Source: an uncultured Luminiphilus sp. | GTDB taxonomy: Bacteria; Pseudomonadota; Gammaproteobacteria; Pseudomonadales; Halieaceae | Assembly: GCA_943840615.1 (NCBI GenBank) | Contig: CALSVI010000010.1 | Coordinates: forward strand, 1-64,000 | DNA length: 64,000 nucleotides | Direction of reading: 5' to 3' | Shown: positions 4,432-41,634 of the stretch, piece after piece | Position numbering within the stretch: position 1 is the first letter of the stretch | How the letters are laid out: each line of letters starts with the position of its first letter | Translations under genes and position numbers: made by a program | Notes under the pieces: model-generated | What the model was told of the DNA's origin: nothing | Database searches by the model: none | What the model saw: only the letters and a program-made list of their open reading frames with translations

Positions 4432-4484
4432 GCAATCTTAACATCGGCCACAATTGACCCGGGTATCGCGGAAGAGTACTGTGC

Positions 4485-4615
4485 CCGCCATCAGGTGCCT
4501 GCCGATCTATTGATCTGGGTAGGTTAAAAGGGAAGTCCGGTGAGAAATCTTCAAGTCCGGCGCTGCCCCCGCAACGGTCATCACACTGGTGAGAGCCCGA
4601 TACCTGCCTGATACA
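4485..4615 (+). promoter_or_regulatory. Cobalamin (B12) riboswitch upstream of btuB
   Basis: The leader has the hallmarks of the cobalamin riboswitch in order: CAGGTGCC near the 5' side, GGTTAAAAGGGAAG (4522-4535), a CCGGTGAGAAATC segment, GCTGCCCCCGCAACGG (4562-4577) and the B12-box-like GAGAGCCCGATACCTGCC (4591-4608). Binding of adenosylcobalamin in this RNA class normally lowers expression of the downstream uptake genes. The roughly 140 bp between the aptamer and the btuB start is the likely expression platform and contains the palindrome GGATGCATCC (4648-4657). There is no clear T-tract terminator, so control may act on translation initiation. Confidence 0.9.
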
Positions 4616-4760
4616 ACCTCATCATGTGGAGCGGAGGGCTTCTGCAGGATGCATCCGATACGCCCGGTCGTCATGCCGCGCCGTGTTTAGCATCCCCAGC
4701 CCTGCCACCGCTTGATGGCAACTCAGAGCATAACGCTGACAGGCAAAAGGGATGGCACCG

Positions 4761-6719
4761 ATGTACTCATACCGTAACCGTAGGCTCGGGACTGGCCCGT
4801 TTAGGCTTCAGACCGCCACCTTCTCAAGCAGAGACAACAGCGCTGACCCGGCGCCCCGTGCCTGGGCTACTGCGCTCTCGATCATGACAGGCTTTGCGCT
4901 GCCGGTCGTTGGGGCGACCGCCGCTTCCGCAGAGGAAGCGCCGGCTGAGAGTGCTGTAGAAGAAGTGATCGTATCGTCGCGCACACCTGATCTAATCGAC
5001 CAAATTGGCGTCTCCGTCAGCGTACTGGACAGCGAAGACATGCGCTCGCTCGGCTACGCGGATCTGGGTTCATTGTTAGACACGCAACCCGGTGTGACCG
5101 TGACCATGGATGGCGGTTACGGCAAGGCAGCTGCGGTAAGGATTCGCGGCGAGGAAGGTTACCGCACCCGTATCGTGCTTGACGGCATCAACATCGCTGA
5201 TCCTTCTTCCCCCCAGATCAGTCCCCGCATTGAGCATCTTATGAGTAGCGGACTGTCTCGGGTAGAGATTCTGCGCGGCCCTCAAGGGCTGCTGTGGGGC
5301 GCGGACGCCGGTGGCGTGATTCTGATGTCCACCACTGATGACAACGCCGAGACGGGGCTCGAGGGCTTTTTCGAGGCGGGCGGTGACGATTTTTATCAGG
5401 CCGCCGTGAATGGCGTGGTGAGCGGCGATCGCGTGACCGGGTCTATCTCTATTGCGCAACTGGAGACGGATGGCATCAATGCCAGAGACATCGATAGCGT
5501 GAATCCGGATCGCGATGGGTATGAAAATACGACTGCGCACGGAGCCCTCTCGATGGCGCTCAATGACGCTTTGTCGCTGCATGTCGCCGCAACTGACCTA
5601 TCCGGCGACAACGAATACGACGGGTGCTACGACGTCGCAACCTTCGCCCTCATCCACGATTGTGAAGACGAATATGAACAGCAGGCCTGGCGCGCGGCGG
5701 CTCGATATACGTCTGATCAGCACTCTGTCGAGCTCAGTTTTGCTTCGAGCGAGACGGAGCGCGCCTTTTTCTCGGCGAAGCAACTTTCCTACGAAACCAG
5801 CGGCGAGACCGACACCCTCTCTTTGGTGGGCTCCTGGCAAGCCACCGACAACACCCGATTGACCTATGGCGTGGATCAGGAGGAGCAATCGCTGTCTGAC
5901 GCCAGCACCAATTGGTCAAGAGATAACACGGGAATCTACCTCGAAGCCCAGCAACGCTTTGGTCAGGGCGTCATGACGGTGGGCTGGCGGCACGATGACA
6001 ACGATGATTTTGGAGAGTTTGAGAGCTGGCGAGTCAGTGGGCGATACGCGTTCACGGGCGCTGCTGAAGGGTGGGCATTGCGCGGCGCAATGGGCACCGG
6101 TTTTAGGGCCCCCAGCCTCTACGAAATCGCTTACAACAATGGTCCGTTTGCCTATGCCCCAGCCGCTGGAACGCCGCTGCTCGAGGAGCAGTCGGAAGGT
6201 TGGGAAGTCGGCATACTGGGCAACGTCGCGCAATTGGCGCTCGAGCTCGTTTGGTTTGACCAGCAGATCGACAATGAAATCATATACGATCTCGCCACCT
6301 ACAGCGGTTATCTGCAGACCAGCGGCACGAGTACTTCAGAAGGTGTGGAACTGGTCGCGAGTCTGCCGCTCTCTCAACACTGGCTGATAGAGGGAAACTT
6401 CACCTGGATGGACGCCGCCCAGCAAAATGGGAATGATCGACCTTACCGACCGGAACAAACCGGCCGGCTGAGCATTGTATGGGAACACAGCGCTTGGTCG
6501 GCAAGGCTCACCGCACGACATACCGGTGAGGCGACCGACCCCTTCATGACCTCCATTGACGACACCCTGACGGTAGACCTAACCGCCAGGTGGGCGGCGA
6601 CTCCTCGCTGGTCTCTGGAGGCAAGAGTGCTTAACCTGACTGACCAATCGGATCAACAACTGCCCGGCTACCGCATGCCCGGCATAACCGCCTACGCGGG
6701 CATTCGCGTGAACCTCTAG
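4761..6719 (+). CDS. btuB: TonB-dependent vitamin B12 receptor, BtuB-like
   Basis: Outer-membrane receptor of about 650 residues. A long N-terminal leader ends in a hydrophobic stretch and TAASAEE. A TonB box (VEEVIVSS) follows, then the plug domain (DLGSLLDTQPGVTV, IRGEEGYRTRIVLDGI, RVEILRGPQGLLWGADAGGVI) and a 22-strand-type barrel with TGFRAPSLYE and the C-terminal aromatic strand ending VNL. A B12 riboswitch in front and cobO behind make cobalamin the expected substrate. The ATG at 4761 is preferred because AGGGA lies about 8 bases upstream; an in-frame ATG at 4752 is the alternative. The gap to cobO is 9 bp. Confidence 0.9.
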   Translation: MYSYRNRRLGTGPFRLQTATFSSRDNSADPAPRAWATALSIMTGFALPVVGATAASAEEAPAESAVEEVIVSSRTPDLIDQIGVSVSVLDSEDMRSLGYADLGSLLDTQPGVTVTMDGGYGKAAAVRIRGEEGYRTRIVLDGINIADPSSPQISPRIEHLMSSGLSRVEILRGPQGLLWGADAGGVILMSTTDDNAETGLEGFFEAGGDDFYQAAVNGVVSGDRVTGSISIAQLETDGINARDIDSVNPDRDGYENTTAHGALSMALNDALSLHVAATDLSGDNEYDGCYDVATFALIHDCEDEYEQQAWRAAARYTSDQHSVELSFASSETERAFFSAKQLSYETSGETDTLSLVGSWQATDNTRLTYGVDQEEQSLSDASTNWSRDNTGIYLEAQQRFGQGVMTVGWRHDDNDDFGEFESWRVSGRYAFTGAAEGWALRGAMGTGFRAPSLYEIAYNNGPFAYAPAAGTPLLEEQSEGWEVGILGNVAQLALELVWFDQQIDNEIIYDLATYSGYLQTSGTSTSEGVELVASLPLSQHWLIEGNFTWMDAAQQNGNDRPYRPEQTGRLSIVWEHSAWSARLTARHTGEATDPFMTSIDDTLTVDLTARWAATPRWSLEARVLNLTDQSDQQLPGYRMPGITAYAGIRVNL

Positions 6720-31165: not shown

Positions 31166-34100
31166 TTACCCAAGCCAGACGCGGGCGTTACGGAACAGGC
31201 GCATCCAGCCCGAATCAGTTTCCCAGCCTGGTGGACACCAGGACAACTGCGCGGCGCGAAACACACGCTCCGGGTGCGGCATCATGACGGTGACACGGCC
31301 GTCTGCATTGCATAGCCCCGTAATACCGTCAGGAGAACCATTGGGGTTAAAGGGGTACGTATCTGCCACCCCCAGATCATGGTCAATGAACCGCATGGCC
31401 ACCACGCCCGCTGACTCGAGTGCCGCTTGCTGATCCGCCGCGGTGAAACGCGCTCGACCCTCTCCGTGAGCCACGACGATCGGCAGATGCGAACCTTCCA
31501 TGCCGGCCAGCAATACGGACGGAGAAGGCTCGATTCTCACCAGCGACAGACGCGCTTCGTATTGCTCCGACCGGTTGCGTGCAAAACGTGGCCAATGATC
31601 CGTGCCGGGAATGATTTTTTGCAGTGCAGAGAGCATCTGGCAACCGTTGCAGACGCCCAAGGCAAAAGTATCGGTGCGGGCAAAAAATTGTTCGAATTGC
31701 GCCCGAACCGCATCGTTGAACAAAATACTCTTTGCCCAACCCTCACCGGCACCCAATACATCACCGTAGGAGAAGCCACCGCACGCGGCCAGACCATGAC
31801 AGTCAGAGAGGTCCTGACGACCTGCCATCACATCACTCATATGCACATCGACCGCCGTAAAGCCCGCTCGGTCAAAAGCCGCCGCCATTTCCATCTGACC
31901 GTTCACGCCCTGCTCGCGGAGAATCGCAACCCTGGGCCTCTGACCGATCGCGATAAAAGGTGCGGCGATGTCCTCATTGCAGTCAAAACTCAGCTTCGCC
32001 GATAAACCCGGATCAACGTTCTGCACCGCAGCAAATTCCTGATCTGCGCAGTCGGCATTGTCCCTGGCACGCGCGATGGCGTGACTGGTTTCGGCCCACA
32101 GCGATTGCAGCGCCGCCCTGCGGCTGTCTATCAGCTCAAATTGCGGTGTATTGATCACAATCCTCTCGTCTGGCCTCGGCGTCGCGACCGGTGTCACCGT
32201 GCCGCCAAGACCCAAGCTCTCGGCGAGCGCCATCATGAGGGGAACGTGTTCACATGCCACCTGCATGACCACACCCACTTCTTCGGAGAACAGTCTGGCG
32301 TTGGCCTGCTCTGGCGCGATATCCAGATCCACCTGTAAGCCACAACGACCCGCAAATGCCATCTCGAGCAGGGTCACCAGCAAACCGCCATCAGATCGAT
32401 CATGGTAGGCCAGCACCCATCCCTTATTTTTTGCCGTGGTAACGAATTCGAAAAGCGCGCTGAGGTCAGCAGGCGCAACATCCGGGGTGACCTGCCCCAT
32501 TTGATTCCAGACCTGCGCCAGCACTGAACCACCCAAGCGATCCTGTCCTCGCCCGAGGTCCACCAGCAACAGCGTCGTATCCTCGCGCGGTAACAAAGCG
32601 GGCGTCAGCACCGTGCGCACGTCACCACAGGGCGCGAATGCGGACACAATCAGCGAAACAGGCGCAGTCACAGCACGATCCTCACCGGCTGCCTCCCACG
32701 CCGTGCGCATCGACATGGAATCTTTGCCTACCGGAATGGTGATTCCCAAAGCAGGGCAAAACTCGCGCCCCACGGCGGCCACCGTGTCATACAAGACCGC
32801 ATCATCTCCCTCGTAACCTGCCGCACACATCCAATTGGCCGACAGCTTGATATCTTTCAGTACCTCGACCGGTGCCGCCAGCAAATTAGTGACGGCTTCA
32901 GCTACCGCCAAACGGCCCGACGCAGGTCCATCCAGCAGCGCCACCGGGGTGCGCTCACCCATCGACATGGCTTCTCCCTGGTGCGTGTCCAGCGACACCG
33001 TGGTCACGGCGCAGTCCGCCACTGGCACCTGCCATGGCCCCACCATTTGATCTCGCGCCACCATGCCGGTCACGCTGCGATCACCAATGGTGATCAAAAA
33101 ACTTTTCGAGGCGACCGCAGGGAAAGTGAGCACCCGCTCGAGGGATTCGGCGACCGAAAGCACGCTGGCATCAAAGGCATCCTGAACGGGCGGCCTGCGC
33201 GTAGTTTGGCGGTGCATTTTAGGTGGCTTGCCAAACAGCACTGACATCGGGAGGTCGACAGGATCGTTGTCGAATTGCCGGTCGGCTACGGTCAAATGAT
33301 GCGCCTCGGTGGCTTCTCCGACTACCGCATAGGGGCAACGTTCCCGCTCACAGATTGACTCAAACTGGGGCAGCTGCTCGGGCTCCACCGCCATCACGTA
33401 TCGCTCCTGAGATTCGTTACACCAAATCTCCAGCGGCGTCATACCGGGCTCGTCATTCGGAACATCGCGCAGCTCAAAACGTCCACCTCGGCCACCGTCT
33501 TTGACCAGTTCGGGTAGCGCATTGCTCAAACCGCCCGCGCCCACATCATGAATAAAGGCGATGGGATTCTCCGGACCCAGGCTCCAGCAACGGTCGATCA
33601 CTTCCTGACAGCGACGCTGTATCTCCGGGTTCTGCCGCTGCACAGAGGCAAAATCAAGATCCTCTGCACTCTCGCCACTTGCCATAGAGGAAGCGGCGCC
33701 CCCGCCGAGGCCGATCAGCATGGCGGGGCCGCCCAAAACAACCAACTTGGCGCCGGCAGAATAATCGCCCTTTTCAACATGCTCTTCGCGAATGTTGCCA
33801 AACCCGCCGGCAATCATGATGGGCTTGTGATACCCCCGGACCCCGGTGGCGGTCTGCGTCTCAAAGGTACGAAAGTAGCCGGCAAGGTTCGGTCTGCCAA
33901 ACTCGTTGTTAAAGGCGGCAGCACCGATCGGACCCTCTGTCATGATCTGCAAGGGAGACACGATCCTGTTCGGTCGACCATATTGCAGTTCCCAGGGTCT
34001 GGGCTGGCCGGGGAGCTCAAGATGCGAGACAGAAAACCCGACCAATCCGACTTTTGGACGCGATCCACGACCGACCGCCCCCTCGTCACGAATCTCACCG

Positions 34101-35039
34101 CCCGATCCCGTGCCAGCCCCCGCAAAAGGTGAAATAGCGGTGGGATGATTATGGGTCTCGACCTTCATCAACAGGTGAATCGGCTCATCGTGGAAACGCC
34201 AGATCCTGATCCGACACATCTGGGTAAAAACGCCCGGCCCTGTGTCCCGCAACCACTGCGGCATTATCAGAGTACGCGGAGAGCACATCGTCACCACCCA
34301 CCTCATTGGTATGGCGGATCATGGCGAACAGCGAATCATCCTGCTGGGTACCGTCTATTTCCCAGCTCGCGTTAAAAATCTTGTGGCGACAATGCTCGGA
34401 GTTGGCCTGGGCAAACATCATCAGCTCGATATCCCGAGGGTTGCGGCCCAGACCCGCGAATGCCTCCGCGAGGTAGTCGATCTCGTCATCGGTCAGGGCC
34501 AGTCCCAGCGCTGTGTTGGCCAGAAACAGGGCCTCGACTCCCGCGCCCAGCAGATCGATCTCCCGGTACGATTGAGGCGCTGATCGCTCAAATAGGGGTG
34601 CCAGATCGTCCAGCGAATCGACCACTGTCTCGACCATGCGGTCATGAATGAGCGCGTCAAGCGCCCGATGGTCCGCGCGCGCGCGCAGGCCGTCGATACC
34701 CACAATCGTGACTCGCTCAATCCGCTCAATGGCTGCAAAGCCGCAGTTGTGGGCGATATCAGTGGCTTTGCTGGACCATGGCGATATCGTTCCGAAACGA
34801 GGCGCTACGACGCGCTGCCCCGAACGGGTGAGCACGTCGGCATCGGCCGCAGTCGCCGTGCCGGGGTGCAGTAACGCCGCCAGACGCTCCGCATTGACAG
34901 TGTGTTCCGGCGTAACGTCGACCACATAGGCATGCACCACCTCGCGAAGTACACACCCCCCGCCCAATGCAGCCATCTCGGTTGCTAACAATTCAAAACG
35001 GGCGTCGGACAGCGCGGAAGATCCGGGCAGGACAAGCAT
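31166..35039 (-). CDS. purL: Phosphoribosylformylglycinamidine synthase, with an apparent frameshift
   Basis: A single-chain PurL of about 1290 residues that converts FGAR to FGAM using ATP and glutamine. The N-terminal part runs to [20 protein letters not shown]. The frame then shifts near 34200-34212 and continues as [25 protein letters not shown], with the ATPase domains ([25 protein letters not shown]). The C-terminal glutaminase has [12 protein letters not shown] and a His in [10 protein letters not shown]. The whole span is a multiple of three plus one, consistent with one inserted base in an otherwise intact gene. The start at 35039 is divergent from mltF, a common gammaproteobacterial neighbour. 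Confidence 0.93.
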
Positions 35040-39226: not shown

Positions 39227-40294
39227 CTACCAGGCAGGCTGCATGCACACCTGATCAGGTATGGTATTCGGCTGGGTAGGCAGCAGGAACAGTCGGGCAA
39301 ACGTCAGGCCGGAGCGCACCAGATAGCCCAGCTTTTTCAGCGCCGCTATGGGGCCACGCTGGCCCGCAAGGGCATCGCGCGCCACCTGAAACTGTCTCAG
39401 TCGCTCCAGGCCTGCGCGAAAACGCGGATCATCGGTATTCAGTGTCAGCGGAAATACCTGCCGCGAAATCTCGGTGGTGATGTCAAATACGGCGTAATCG
39501 AACTCGGTGACATCCATGCCAAACGCTTCGTAGAGCTTGGGCCGAGAGTGGTCTCTCACATACATGGTGGAATACACCGCCAGCAAAAAGAAGCGAATCC
39601 AGAGCTTGTTCAAGCCACTGAGCAGCTTGGGATCAGAGCGCATGATGAGCGCGAAGCCTTCACCGTGGGCAAATTCGTCGTTACACCACTCGAGAAACCA
39701 CTTAAAGATGGGATGGAATCGCTTTTCCGGATGACGCTCAAGATGTCGATAAATGGTGATGTAGCGGGCGTATCCAATTTTTTCCGACAGGTACGTCGCG
39801 TAATAAATGTACTTAGGCTTGAAGAAGGTGTATTCCTTCTCACGCTTCAGGACACCCAGGTCAACGGCCACACCGAGTTTATTCAGGGCCTTGTTGATGA
39901 AGCCCGCGTGCCGGGACTCATCGCGCGCCATGTAGCGCATCAATTTCGCTACGTCGGGGTTACTAACGTTTTTTTCGATTTCTTGATACAGCACACACCC
40001 TGAGTACTCGGCGGTGATTGACGACACCAGCAGATCCAGAAATTCCTCCTTCAGATCGGGGTCTGATTCCAGAATGCTGGGGTCATACTCATAATTTTGC
40101 TTGAAGTGACCGCGGTTCTTGTCGAGCTCGAAGTCCCGCATCAGCAGATCCCACTCGGCACGAACCGGCTCAATATCGATCTTCTCCATGGCCGCGTAAT
40201 CGGTCCGATAGAATCGCGGAGCCAATGGCTGCGGCTCCAGCGCCTGCTGCGTAGTCAGATTTACCGATGCCTCTGCGGCAACTGCGTCACTCAT
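39227..40294 (-). CDS. acsF: Aerobic Mg-protoporphyrin IX monomethyl ester (oxidative) cyclase AcsF
   Basis: A 355-residue diiron enzyme that uses oxygen to form the isocyclic E ring of (bacterio)chlorophyll. [15 protein letters not shown] and [19 protein letters not shown] at the N-terminus, then the carboxylate/His diiron ligands in [30 protein letters not shown] and [19 protein letters not shown], identify the family. Its normal partners (bch, puf, puh genes) are not in this window, so this is an isolated copy. The ATG at 40294 follows AGGGGGAGAG. It is divergent from the BLUF gene with a 184-bp shared control region. Confidence 0.95.
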
Positions 40295-40357
40295 GCTCTC
40301 CCCCTCATGGTCAGCTTTGGACAGCGACCGGACTGGGCCGAATCACCACCGCTTTAG

Positions 40358-40399
40358 TGTCCATGTTTTTTAACATTTAGTTGTCAATTTTATTTGACT
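40358..40399. promoter_or_regulatory. Tandem TGT-N12-ACA-like palindromes between acsF and the BLUF gene
   Basis: Site 1 (40358-40375) is TGTCCATGTTTTTTAACA, an exact TGT-N12-ACA. Site 2 (40382-40399) is TGTCAATTTTATTTGACT, which fits TGTc-N10-gAC with the last base different. Their starts are 24 bp apart. This is the pattern bound by PpsR/CrtJ repressors of photosynthesis genes, where paired sites are usual. No binding protein is encoded nearby, so the assignment rests on the motif and the acsF context. Confidence 0.45.
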
Positions 40400-40478
40400 A
40401 TTAAGCATCTAGCAAGCAATGTGTCGGTTGGGGGCTACGCTAGAACAGATCGTCGATCTCATCAGAGGCAACTAGCCC

Positions 40479-40946
40479 ATGTCACAAGTCAATAACCAGC
40501 AGTTGGCGCCAGACCAGCAGGAAGGCGCCGTCTATCACCTTTGCTATGTCAGCGCTGAAACGGCCAGTTTCTCTCAAGACGAGTTGGTTTCGCTGCTCAC
40601 TGACGCCCGGCGGGTGAACGCCGAGAGAGGCGTTACCGGCCTGCTACTGTATCGAGAAGGTTGCTTTTATCAGGTTCTGGAAGGCAGCGAATCTACGGTG
40701 AGACAGACTTTTGAGCATATTCAGAGCGACCCTCGCCACAAGGAGGTCCGTGTCCTGTTCAACGGCGATACGGAGGCAAGAGAATTTGCCGACTGGCAAA
40801 TGGGCTTTCTGAATCTGGATGGCGTCGATATCGAGACCCTAACTGGATTTTCAGACTTTCTGACGCGCGACGCCCAGCCTCAGGAATTTCTAGAAAATTT
40901 GAGCCGCGGCAAACGACTGGCGATGATGTTTAGGTCGCTGGAGTAG
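40479..40946 (+). CDS. BLUF domain blue-light sensor protein
   Basis: A 155-residue short BLUF protein (FAD-binding photoreceptor). The photochemical residues are all present: Tyr23 in YHLCYVSAE, Asn47 and GVTGLLLYREG, Gln65 in CFYQVLEG, and the Trp/Met segment ADWQMGF. A C-terminal helical extension (ETLTGFSDFLTRD...SRGKRLAMMFRSLE) probably carries the signal to a partner, since no output domain is fused. It is divergent from acsF. Its end overlaps a convergent membrane-protein gene by 17 bp. Confidence 0.92.
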   Translation: MSQVNNQQLAPDQQEGAVYHLCYVSAETASFSQDELVSLLTDARRVNAERGVTGLLLYREGCFYQVLEGSESTVRQTFEHIQSDPRHKEVRVLFNGDTEAREFADWQMGFLNLDGVDIETLTGFSDFLTRDAQPQEFLENLSRGKRLAMMFRSLE

Positions 40947-41421
40947 CGCGGGACCGAAATTGAGGTCGCCACACACCGAGCGCCACGTTGACCGTGGCCA
41001 CAAAGCCAATCAACACCAGAGACCATTGCTCGGCGTCAAGCTTCATCGCCAGACCATCGACAAGCGTCGCGTCGGACAGCGCTGCTGCAGCGCGATCGGC
41101 TTCCCGTTGAATAGGGCTCTGAATGCCCAGAAGGCTTCCCTCTAGCATCAGCACGGTCGTCACCAGCTTCGCCCAGGCCCAGGGCGCACTATGAAAACCC
41201 GGCACCACTGCCATTGACGCCATGCCAAAGAGCAGGCTGATCAAGAGTGAGGGCATCAATACCAGGGACGCGATACGGGCCATCACATGTCGCTGGGCGA
41301 CATAAACGTCTAACGCCTCGGAGGGCGACGGCAGCTGCTGATGAAACACCCACAACACGACCACCGACCCTAGGAATGTGATCGCGGTCATGGAATGACC
41401 AAACTTCATGAGTTTTCTCAT
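40930..41421 (-). CDS. Small integral membrane protein, possibly DUF2269-like
   Basis: About 163 residues with four hydrophobic helices: ITFLGSVVVLWVFHQ (about 12-27), IASLVLMPSLLISLLFGMASMAV, WAKLVTTVLMLEGSLLGIQ and LVLIGFVATVNVALGVWRP. The layout resembles DUF2269-type predicted membrane proteins, but I am not sure of the family. The start at 41421 follows AGGTGAAG; an upstream in-frame extension looks non-coding. Confidence 0.65.
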   Translation of the reverse strand: MRKLMKFGHSMTAITFLGSVVVLWVFHQQLPSPSEALDVYVAQRHVMARIASLVLMPSLLISLLFGMASMAVVPGFHSAPWAWAKLVTTVLMLEGSLLGIQSPIQREADRAAAALSDATLVDGLAMKLDAEQWSLVLIGFVATVNVALGVWRPQFRSRATPAT

Positions 41422-41634
41422 CTTGTCTTCACCTGCTATCGCCCACCTCACCGAGACCGTTGACGCATCGGCGATGACCGTGACCTTTATGCCTTGAAGC
41501 GCGTTGCACGCGTCTTTTATCGCCAGCGCGTTTGACCATCGCATATATCCAGCACGCTATTACCGTATGATACGCCCCCGAAAGCGTATCCCGGCGAAAA
41601 TGTCTCTCTTCGCCCTTTCACGGAGCACGACGCC

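Follow-up and report, generated by a model that had tools for sequence, protein, structure and literature searches.

The stretch of DNA analysed here (the window: C10:1-64000, 64,000 nucleotides of an uncultured Luminiphilus sp., from an assembly of 2.09 Mb in 19 contigs that is 82% complete) raises the question of why acsF, a gene of bacteriochlorophyll synthesis, lies head-to-head with a gene for a short blue-light photoreceptor, and what the one has to do with the other. AcsF cyclases convert a Mg-porphyrin ester, with O2, to protochlorophyllide, and the ligands of their diiron centre lie in ExxH motifs. The acsF of the window (39227..40294, minus strand; 355 aa) is predicted to encode such an oxygen-dependent ring cyclase, since its product passes the cut-off of the TIGR02029 equivalog model (501.1 bits, cut-off 192.5) and keeps two ExxH motifs, ESRH at residue 126 and EFAH at residue 207. 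BLUF photoreceptors bind FAD and undergo a red-shifted photocycle. The divergent gene (40479..40946, plus strand; 155 aa) encodes a predicted member of this group, judged by its PF04940 score (105.8 bits, cut-off 25) and its Tyr/Asn/Gln triad; Tyr23, Asn47, Gln65, Trp106 and Met108 are all kept. Both genes are complete and are separated by a gap of 184 bp, so that the divergent pair of acsF and a complete short BLUF gene with Tyr23, Asn47 and Gln65, as the earlier note had described it, is borne out. The neighbours of the pair are genes for an enoyl-CoA hydratase, an NnrU-family protein, an acyl-CoA dehydrogenase and a thioesterase.

The other pathway genes were sought with 42 proteins from a Roseobacter photosynthesis gene cluster (PGC) plasmid and were found on another contig of the same genome, C4. 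Between 91.8 and 132.9 kb this contig carries matches to bchP, a BCD-family transporter gene, bchG, ppsR, and bchF, N, B, H, L and M; to lhaA, puhA, B, C and E, idi, and pufA, B, C, M and L; and to bchZ, Y, X and C, crtF, E, C, B and I, bchO, D and I, and crtD. The ppsR gene lies at G000:C4:95368-96675 (TIGR02040, 383.9 bits), and pufL and pufM lie at C4:113.8-115.5 kb. The queries with no match on the C4 stretch were acsF, ppaA, hemA, a c-type cytochrome, crtA, tspO, pufQ and dxs, with copies beyond that stretch sought for acsF and ppaA only. Because every bch query matched on C4 and, of the bch and cyclase genes sought, acsF alone was missing, the acsF of the window completes the bch set. 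The earlier note had proposed a search for puf, bch and ppsR, and had held that a genome with no other bacteriochlorophyll genes would count against its reading; all three are present on C4. With the PGC in the same genome, the idea that acsF is a relic of lost phototrophy is not supported. On C4, bchH, bchL, bchO and bchI were each matched as two pieces, as if frame-shifted (G000:C4 ~100.3-105 and 126.7-130.4 kb; L073, L074). Assembly errors are a likelier cause than gene decay, since purL in the window (named by eye) also looks split, into overlapping open reading frames at 31166-34306 and 34185-35039.

To assess how widely the pair is conserved, we searched 140 genomes of the family with AcsF at E 0.001. 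This gave 61 matches, of which three weak ones (about 19-20 bits; G028, G074, G089) were set aside, leaving 58 acsF-bearing genomes. A divergent BLUF gene adjoins acsF in 56 of these 58, and in both exceptions the contig runs out, 238 bp beyond the acsF match in G072 and, in G083, with the final base of an acsF that is itself truncated. The conservation across Halieaceae on which the earlier note had made its reading depend is thus found, and chance pairing is ruled out by the same count. The pair is present in six genera, and the BLUF proteins of the other genera compared are down to 41-50% identity. Among 369 sampled genomes from the class there are four further acsF carriers; none of the four has a BLUF gene within roughly 1.5 kb on either side of acsF, and in three of them acsF lies among puh genes. 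The conservation of the pair mostly reflects vertical inheritance. The acsF loci with no BLUF match are L064 (Roseivivax) and three in which acsF lies at a contig end or close to one, L050, L052 and L062. Two loci of the same class outside the family, L125 (G397) and L126 (G164), have a BciE-like gene directly before acsF; the AcsF of L125 groups with the alphaproteobacterial Roseivivax row (100/100), which suggests gene transfer.

The position of the pair relative to the PGC differs within the family. The ppsR gene is on the contig of the pair, 3.9-14.8 kb off, in 29 of the 56 paired genomes, and on another contig in 26, some of which are merely fragmented assemblies; in the one remaining genome no ppsR was found over the cut-off. 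Where linked loci have enough flank, the gene order is BLUF-acsF-bchP-bch2-bchG-ppsR-bchF, and in detached loci it is BLUF-acsF-ech followed by the genes of the window, which places the breakpoint just downstream of acsF. The 18 detached rows of the family fall together in the AcsF tree, as one clade (97/98) nested in linked genomes; the Roseivivax row L064, labelled detached by way of an enoyl-CoA-hydratase paralogue, was not counted. This pattern indicates that linkage to the PGC was lost once, as a derived state of a subclade that includes the window genome, and that the pair and its putative operator persisted through the loss. As to the origin of the detached block, the outer neighbours of linked and detached loci do not match one another, the HemJ-like gene described below aside, and the flanks of the PGC on C4 likewise show no match.

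The photoreceptor of the pair is of a type of its own. In a tree of 84 BLUF proteins (distinct sequences from sampled loci and not all 56 pairs, with the short broken pieces G096:C24 and G059:C19 omitted), the paired type forms a single branch (98/90) that excludes the 39 others, which are of several types. This branch holds 45 sequences: 44 distinct paired BLUFs and one from G089, where the contig ends at the place in which acsF is due. A C-terminal signature, L[ST]xxx[RK]LxxxF, occurs in 44 of the 45 paired-type sequences and in none of the 39 others, the pattern having been written after the sequences were inspected and being therefore a description and no blind test; the sole paired-type row that lacks it, L007, looks frame-shifted at its end. 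Tyr23, Asn47 and Gln65 are invariant across 43 aligned paired-type BLUFs. No other BLUF gene was found in the window genome. In the tree, the outgroup closest to the paired clade is a BLUF in a 528-aa open frame of L085 (G027:C1:2623700-2626600), a genome with no acsF that carries two BLUF genes close together.

A Pfam scan of the BLUF protein of the window returned no second domain and no DNA-binding domain, only a sub-threshold TEX47 match that overlaps the BLUF domain. Its predicted model (mean pLDDT 72.4) has a good BLUF core and two C-terminal helices, residues 134-139 and 143-153, of low confidence. The best match among solved structures by sequence is AppA (1.3e-22), closely followed by an adenylate cyclase (3.7e-22). 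Proteins of the AppA family combine a BLUF domain with a second, C-terminal sensory domain. The absence of this second domain places the window BLUF outside the AppA family: at 155 aa it has no second Pfam sensory domain and ends in short modelled helices.

The 184-bp gap between the two genes holds two boxes that resemble the PpsR box, for which the consensus is given as TGT-N12-ACA or TGTcaN8tgACA, often in tandem over a promoter (PMC4452267, PMC2654016). Box 2, TGTCCATGTTTTTTAACA (40358..40375), is an exact TGT-N12-ACA and a stringent site, of which part is conserved across the detached subclade. Box 1, AGTCAAATAAAATTGACA on the minus strand (40382..40399), has five of the six outer bases. 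A consensus scan predicts a sigma-70-type acsF promoter, TTGCTA-17-TAAAAT (40387..40415, minus strand; one hit against a shuffle mean of 0.2), the -10 element of which (TAAAAT) falls within box 1. The two boxes are 6 bp apart, which is outside the 7-9 bp published for closely spaced tandem PpsR sites (PMC4452267, PMC2654016). We regard them as putative PpsR/CrtJ-type operators, one with six of six and the other with five of six outer bases.

The same kind of site recurs across the family. Among 45 unique acsF-BLUF intergenic sequences, an exact TGT-N12-ACA occurs in 19 (the G+C-rich L015 among them), compared with 2.1 in 200 shuffles (maximum 6); the stringent rule, which was fitted after the sites of the window had been seen, is satisfied in 35, compared with 1.3 in resampled sequences (maximum 5), and a looser rule in all 45, compared with 14.4 (maximum 23), and since the loci are related these enrichments overstate the independent evidence. 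The only two stringent sites in the 64-kb window are both inside the 184-bp gap. On a 60-kb stretch with the PGC, nine of 11 stringent sites lie at the 5' ends of bchG, ppsR, bchF, bchC, crtE/crtC and crtI or immediately upstream of them, and the other two are outside the PGC. Within the detached subclade, box 1 is unchanged in 18 of 18 loci tested although the gap around it differs from locus to locus in both length and sequence, and stringent sites have a density of 6.3 per kb in the gap versus 0.04 per kb elsewhere, again among related loci [18 of 21 detached loci were used, the omissions being L050 and L062, in which the gap is cut off, and L033, in which the gap is that of L024 with the box present]. 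An alignment of 20 unique detached intergenics shows four conserved blocks: TGCTTGC, which covers the acsF -35, box 1, which is the longest, the end of box 2, and a G-rich stretch just before acsF. Linked loci have a stringent site in the gap in two of nine cases, the others having 5-of-6 matches only, which points to a weaker gap operator in the PGC-linked relatives. Loci with an unpaired BLUF gene have a stringent site in seven of 38 cases, counted anywhere in 56 kb in total. An operator of its own would be needed by acsF, because the gene lies outside the puh operon in the family and outside the PGC in the subclade.

The earlier note had also tied the pair to vitamin B12, through the alternative cyclase BchE and light regulators of the AerR/PpaA type, and this tie is not supported. 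BchE has no match in the window genome, which speaks against it as an alternative cyclase there; none scores over the cut-off in its genus, and the eight of 140 family genomes in which one does are all of other genera. A single Roseobacter query, run at E 1e-5, found no AerR/PpaA in any of the 140 genomes; it does recover a Sulfitobacter PpaA at 32% identity and could miss a distant form. B12 uptake itself is likely encoded in the window, where a cobalamin riboswitch (4476-4625, plus strand; RF00174, 61.5 bits) lies ahead of a gene for a TonB-dependent receptor (4752-6719, plus strand), and no tie between this uptake and acsF regulation was found. BciE, likewise sought with one query, has no match in the 140 family genomes; in L125, L126, L064 and L083 that query picks up a BciE-like gene next to acsF.

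The reading towards which we lean, and which we consider somewhat probable, is that acsF and its dedicated BLUF gene share a PpsR-controlled divergent promoter, and that the BLUF protein modulates PpsR in the manner of AppA, though as a stand-alone protein, so that light tunes the whole PGC. PpsR would bind the operators in the gap and control acsF and the BLUF gene from one divergent promoter region. In the dark the BLUF protein would hinder PpsR; in blue light it would cease to hinder PpsR, or would help it, and PpsR could then repress the PGC as well as acsF and, closing a feedback loop, the BLUF gene. The contact between BLUF and PpsR may be made through the C-terminal helix of the BLUF protein. 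In the paired clade BLUF may provide the light input that AppA and AerR give elsewhere, as no PpaA/AerR was found with the one query and no second domain on the BLUF protein. We infer the binding of PpsR, the contact between BLUF and PpsR, and the sign of the light effect, the last from published pigment data: pigment is lowered by blue light in Congregibacter litoralis (PMC2654016) and by blue and green light in Luminiphilus syltensis (PMC3666943), and the latter report names oxidative stress, rather than a sensor, as an alternative cause of the blue-light effect.

It is also conceivable, if unlikely, that the two genes are only co-regulated, sharing a PpsR promoter because both serve phototrophy, and that BLUF signals to another partner, for example in motility, stress responses or among second-messenger enzymes. 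The operators would account for the linkage with no BLUF-PpsR contact at all, and other short BLUF proteins do have other partners, as BlsA has in Fur (PMC5955987). Against this, in the loci examined the paired BLUF clade is always beside acsF, or (in G089) at the contig end where acsF is due; no PpaA was found in the 140 genomes with the one query; and pigment goes down under blue light in this clade (PMC2654016, PMC3666943).

The earlier note had suggested that blue light tunes a single oxygen-sensitive step. BLUF would in that case control this step alone, by transcription or by contact with the cyclase in the manner of Ycf54 or BciE, and acsF is indeed the one pathway gene that stayed beside BLUF after the detachment, while BciE has no match in the 140 genomes with one query. 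We nevertheless consider this improbable: the pair has the operator type of the PGC promoters, and no DNA-binding domain was matched in the BLUF protein, which together make control of the whole PGC via PpsR likelier than control of acsF alone. Also against this reading, anoxygenic AcsF outside the Alphaproteobacteria is classed as needing no auxiliary subunit (PMC7319587).

The BLUF gene is overlapped at its 3' end by a third gene, encoding a HemJ/UPF0093-like membrane protein (40930..41544, minus strand, with a likely start near 41421). The protein scores 27.3 bits against PF03653, below the cut-off of 34.2, and an NCBIfam scan returned no match; PF03653 matches all ten aligned members at E 0.01, and TIGR00701 weakly matches three of the ten (best E 0.0012). 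By these cut-offs it does not belong to the HemJ protoporphyrinogen oxidases (TIGR00701/PF03653). HemJ has conserved His and Lys residues. His50, His118 and Lys126 are invariant in the ten aligned sequences and could be their counterparts. A profile built from its orthologues matches 42 of 140 genomes, and 40 of the 42 also have acsF (Fisher p 1.5e-18, a value that ignores shared ancestry); the other two are G089, with its paired-type BLUF at a contig end, and G090, which has neither gene. No match was found in 18 of the 58 acsF genomes, and in genera g6, g7, g13 and g27 the gene is on other contigs or far from acsF and is unlinked to BLUF. The earlier note's description of acsF as isolated is right by the other neighbours, but it does not extend to this one, which is mostly confined to acsF-bearing genomes.

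At E 0.01 the HemJ model matches 122 of the 140 genomes (three over the cut-off), the match in G108 being the HemJ-like gene only and the remaining matches being at E 1e-30 or better, so many phototrophs of the family carry both HemJ and the HemJ-like protein; the model has no match in the window genome. On this evidence we consider the gene a putative phototrophy-associated relative of HemJ, and it is possible that it encodes a second protoporphyrinogen oxidase specific to phototrophy. None of the seven loci examined has a stringent PpsR box near it. The three genes could conceivably form a light-gated module, in which BLUF binds the cyclase or the HemJ-like protein and gates precursor flow in blue light, beside the control by PpsR, so as to avoid phototoxic porphyrins; we regard this as quite improbable. 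The notion that the pair is an inherited leftover of the PGC edge with no functional tie fits the single detachment event on the AcsF tree and the break just downstream of acsF, but is very improbable in view of the retention of the pair in six genera despite BLUF identities of 41-50% in other genera, and of an 18-bp box that stays unchanged while the gap around it varies.

Parts of the preferred reading, control of the PGC through BLUF and PpsR, have precedents in the literature. Zheng et al. 2011 (PMC3176799) note in a single phrase that acsF of the NOR5/OM60 clade lies near a BLUF gene and not with puh, and Spring et al. 2009 (PMC2654016) describe a BLUF gene near ppsR in C. litoralis (KT71_19323) and 15 putative PpsR sites in the KT71 cluster; Figure S5 of the latter paper may already mark the site in the KT71 acsF-BLUF gap. 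That a single-domain BLUF protein acts on PpsR is a proposal of 2009, taken up again in 2013 (PMC2654016, PMC3666943). The same two genes lie at the edge of the NOR5/OM60 PGC, and the order BLUF, acsF, bchP, bch2, bchG, ppsR in our linked relatives fits the published description, whereas the pair of the window lies off the PGC and has the HemJ-like third gene. AppA of Rhodobacter (Cereibacter) sphaeroides likewise ties a BLUF domain to PpsR control of photosynthesis genes, a tie that for the window BLUF is a proposal. AppA and the LOV protein LdaP are both PpsR antirepressors (PMC10890935), and the tie of the short BLUF protein BlsA to Fur (PMC5955987) is a further precedent. LdaP of Dinoroseobacter shibae is also a stand-alone blue-light protein, and hinders PpsR in the dark only (PMC10890935), but it has a LOV and not a BLUF domain, and its effect is experimental whereas that of the window BLUF is proposed. 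The puhABC-acsF-puhE arrangement has the same cyclase gene, with acsF among puh genes in the Roseobacter and Sulfitobacter plasmids examined and not in the loci examined from this family. In the mostly open-access literature consulted, we saw no description of a dedicated BLUF clade or its C-terminal signature, a detached pair or an acsF-BLUF operator, and no test of the 2009 BLUF-PpsR proposal. Our evidence, drawn from sequence comparison, fits that proposal and adds to it a putative PpsR-type operator region common to the BLUF gene and acsF.

Among the bacteria of marine surface waters, the aerobic phototrophs of this family hold an important place. The paired BLUF protein is a good candidate for the sensor by which blue light controls their pigment synthesis, and the analysis adds a dedicated BLUF clade, a putative common operator and a C-terminal signature open to mutation. 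The HemJ-like neighbour hints at a possible second step of tetrapyrrole synthesis that is adapted to phototrophy.
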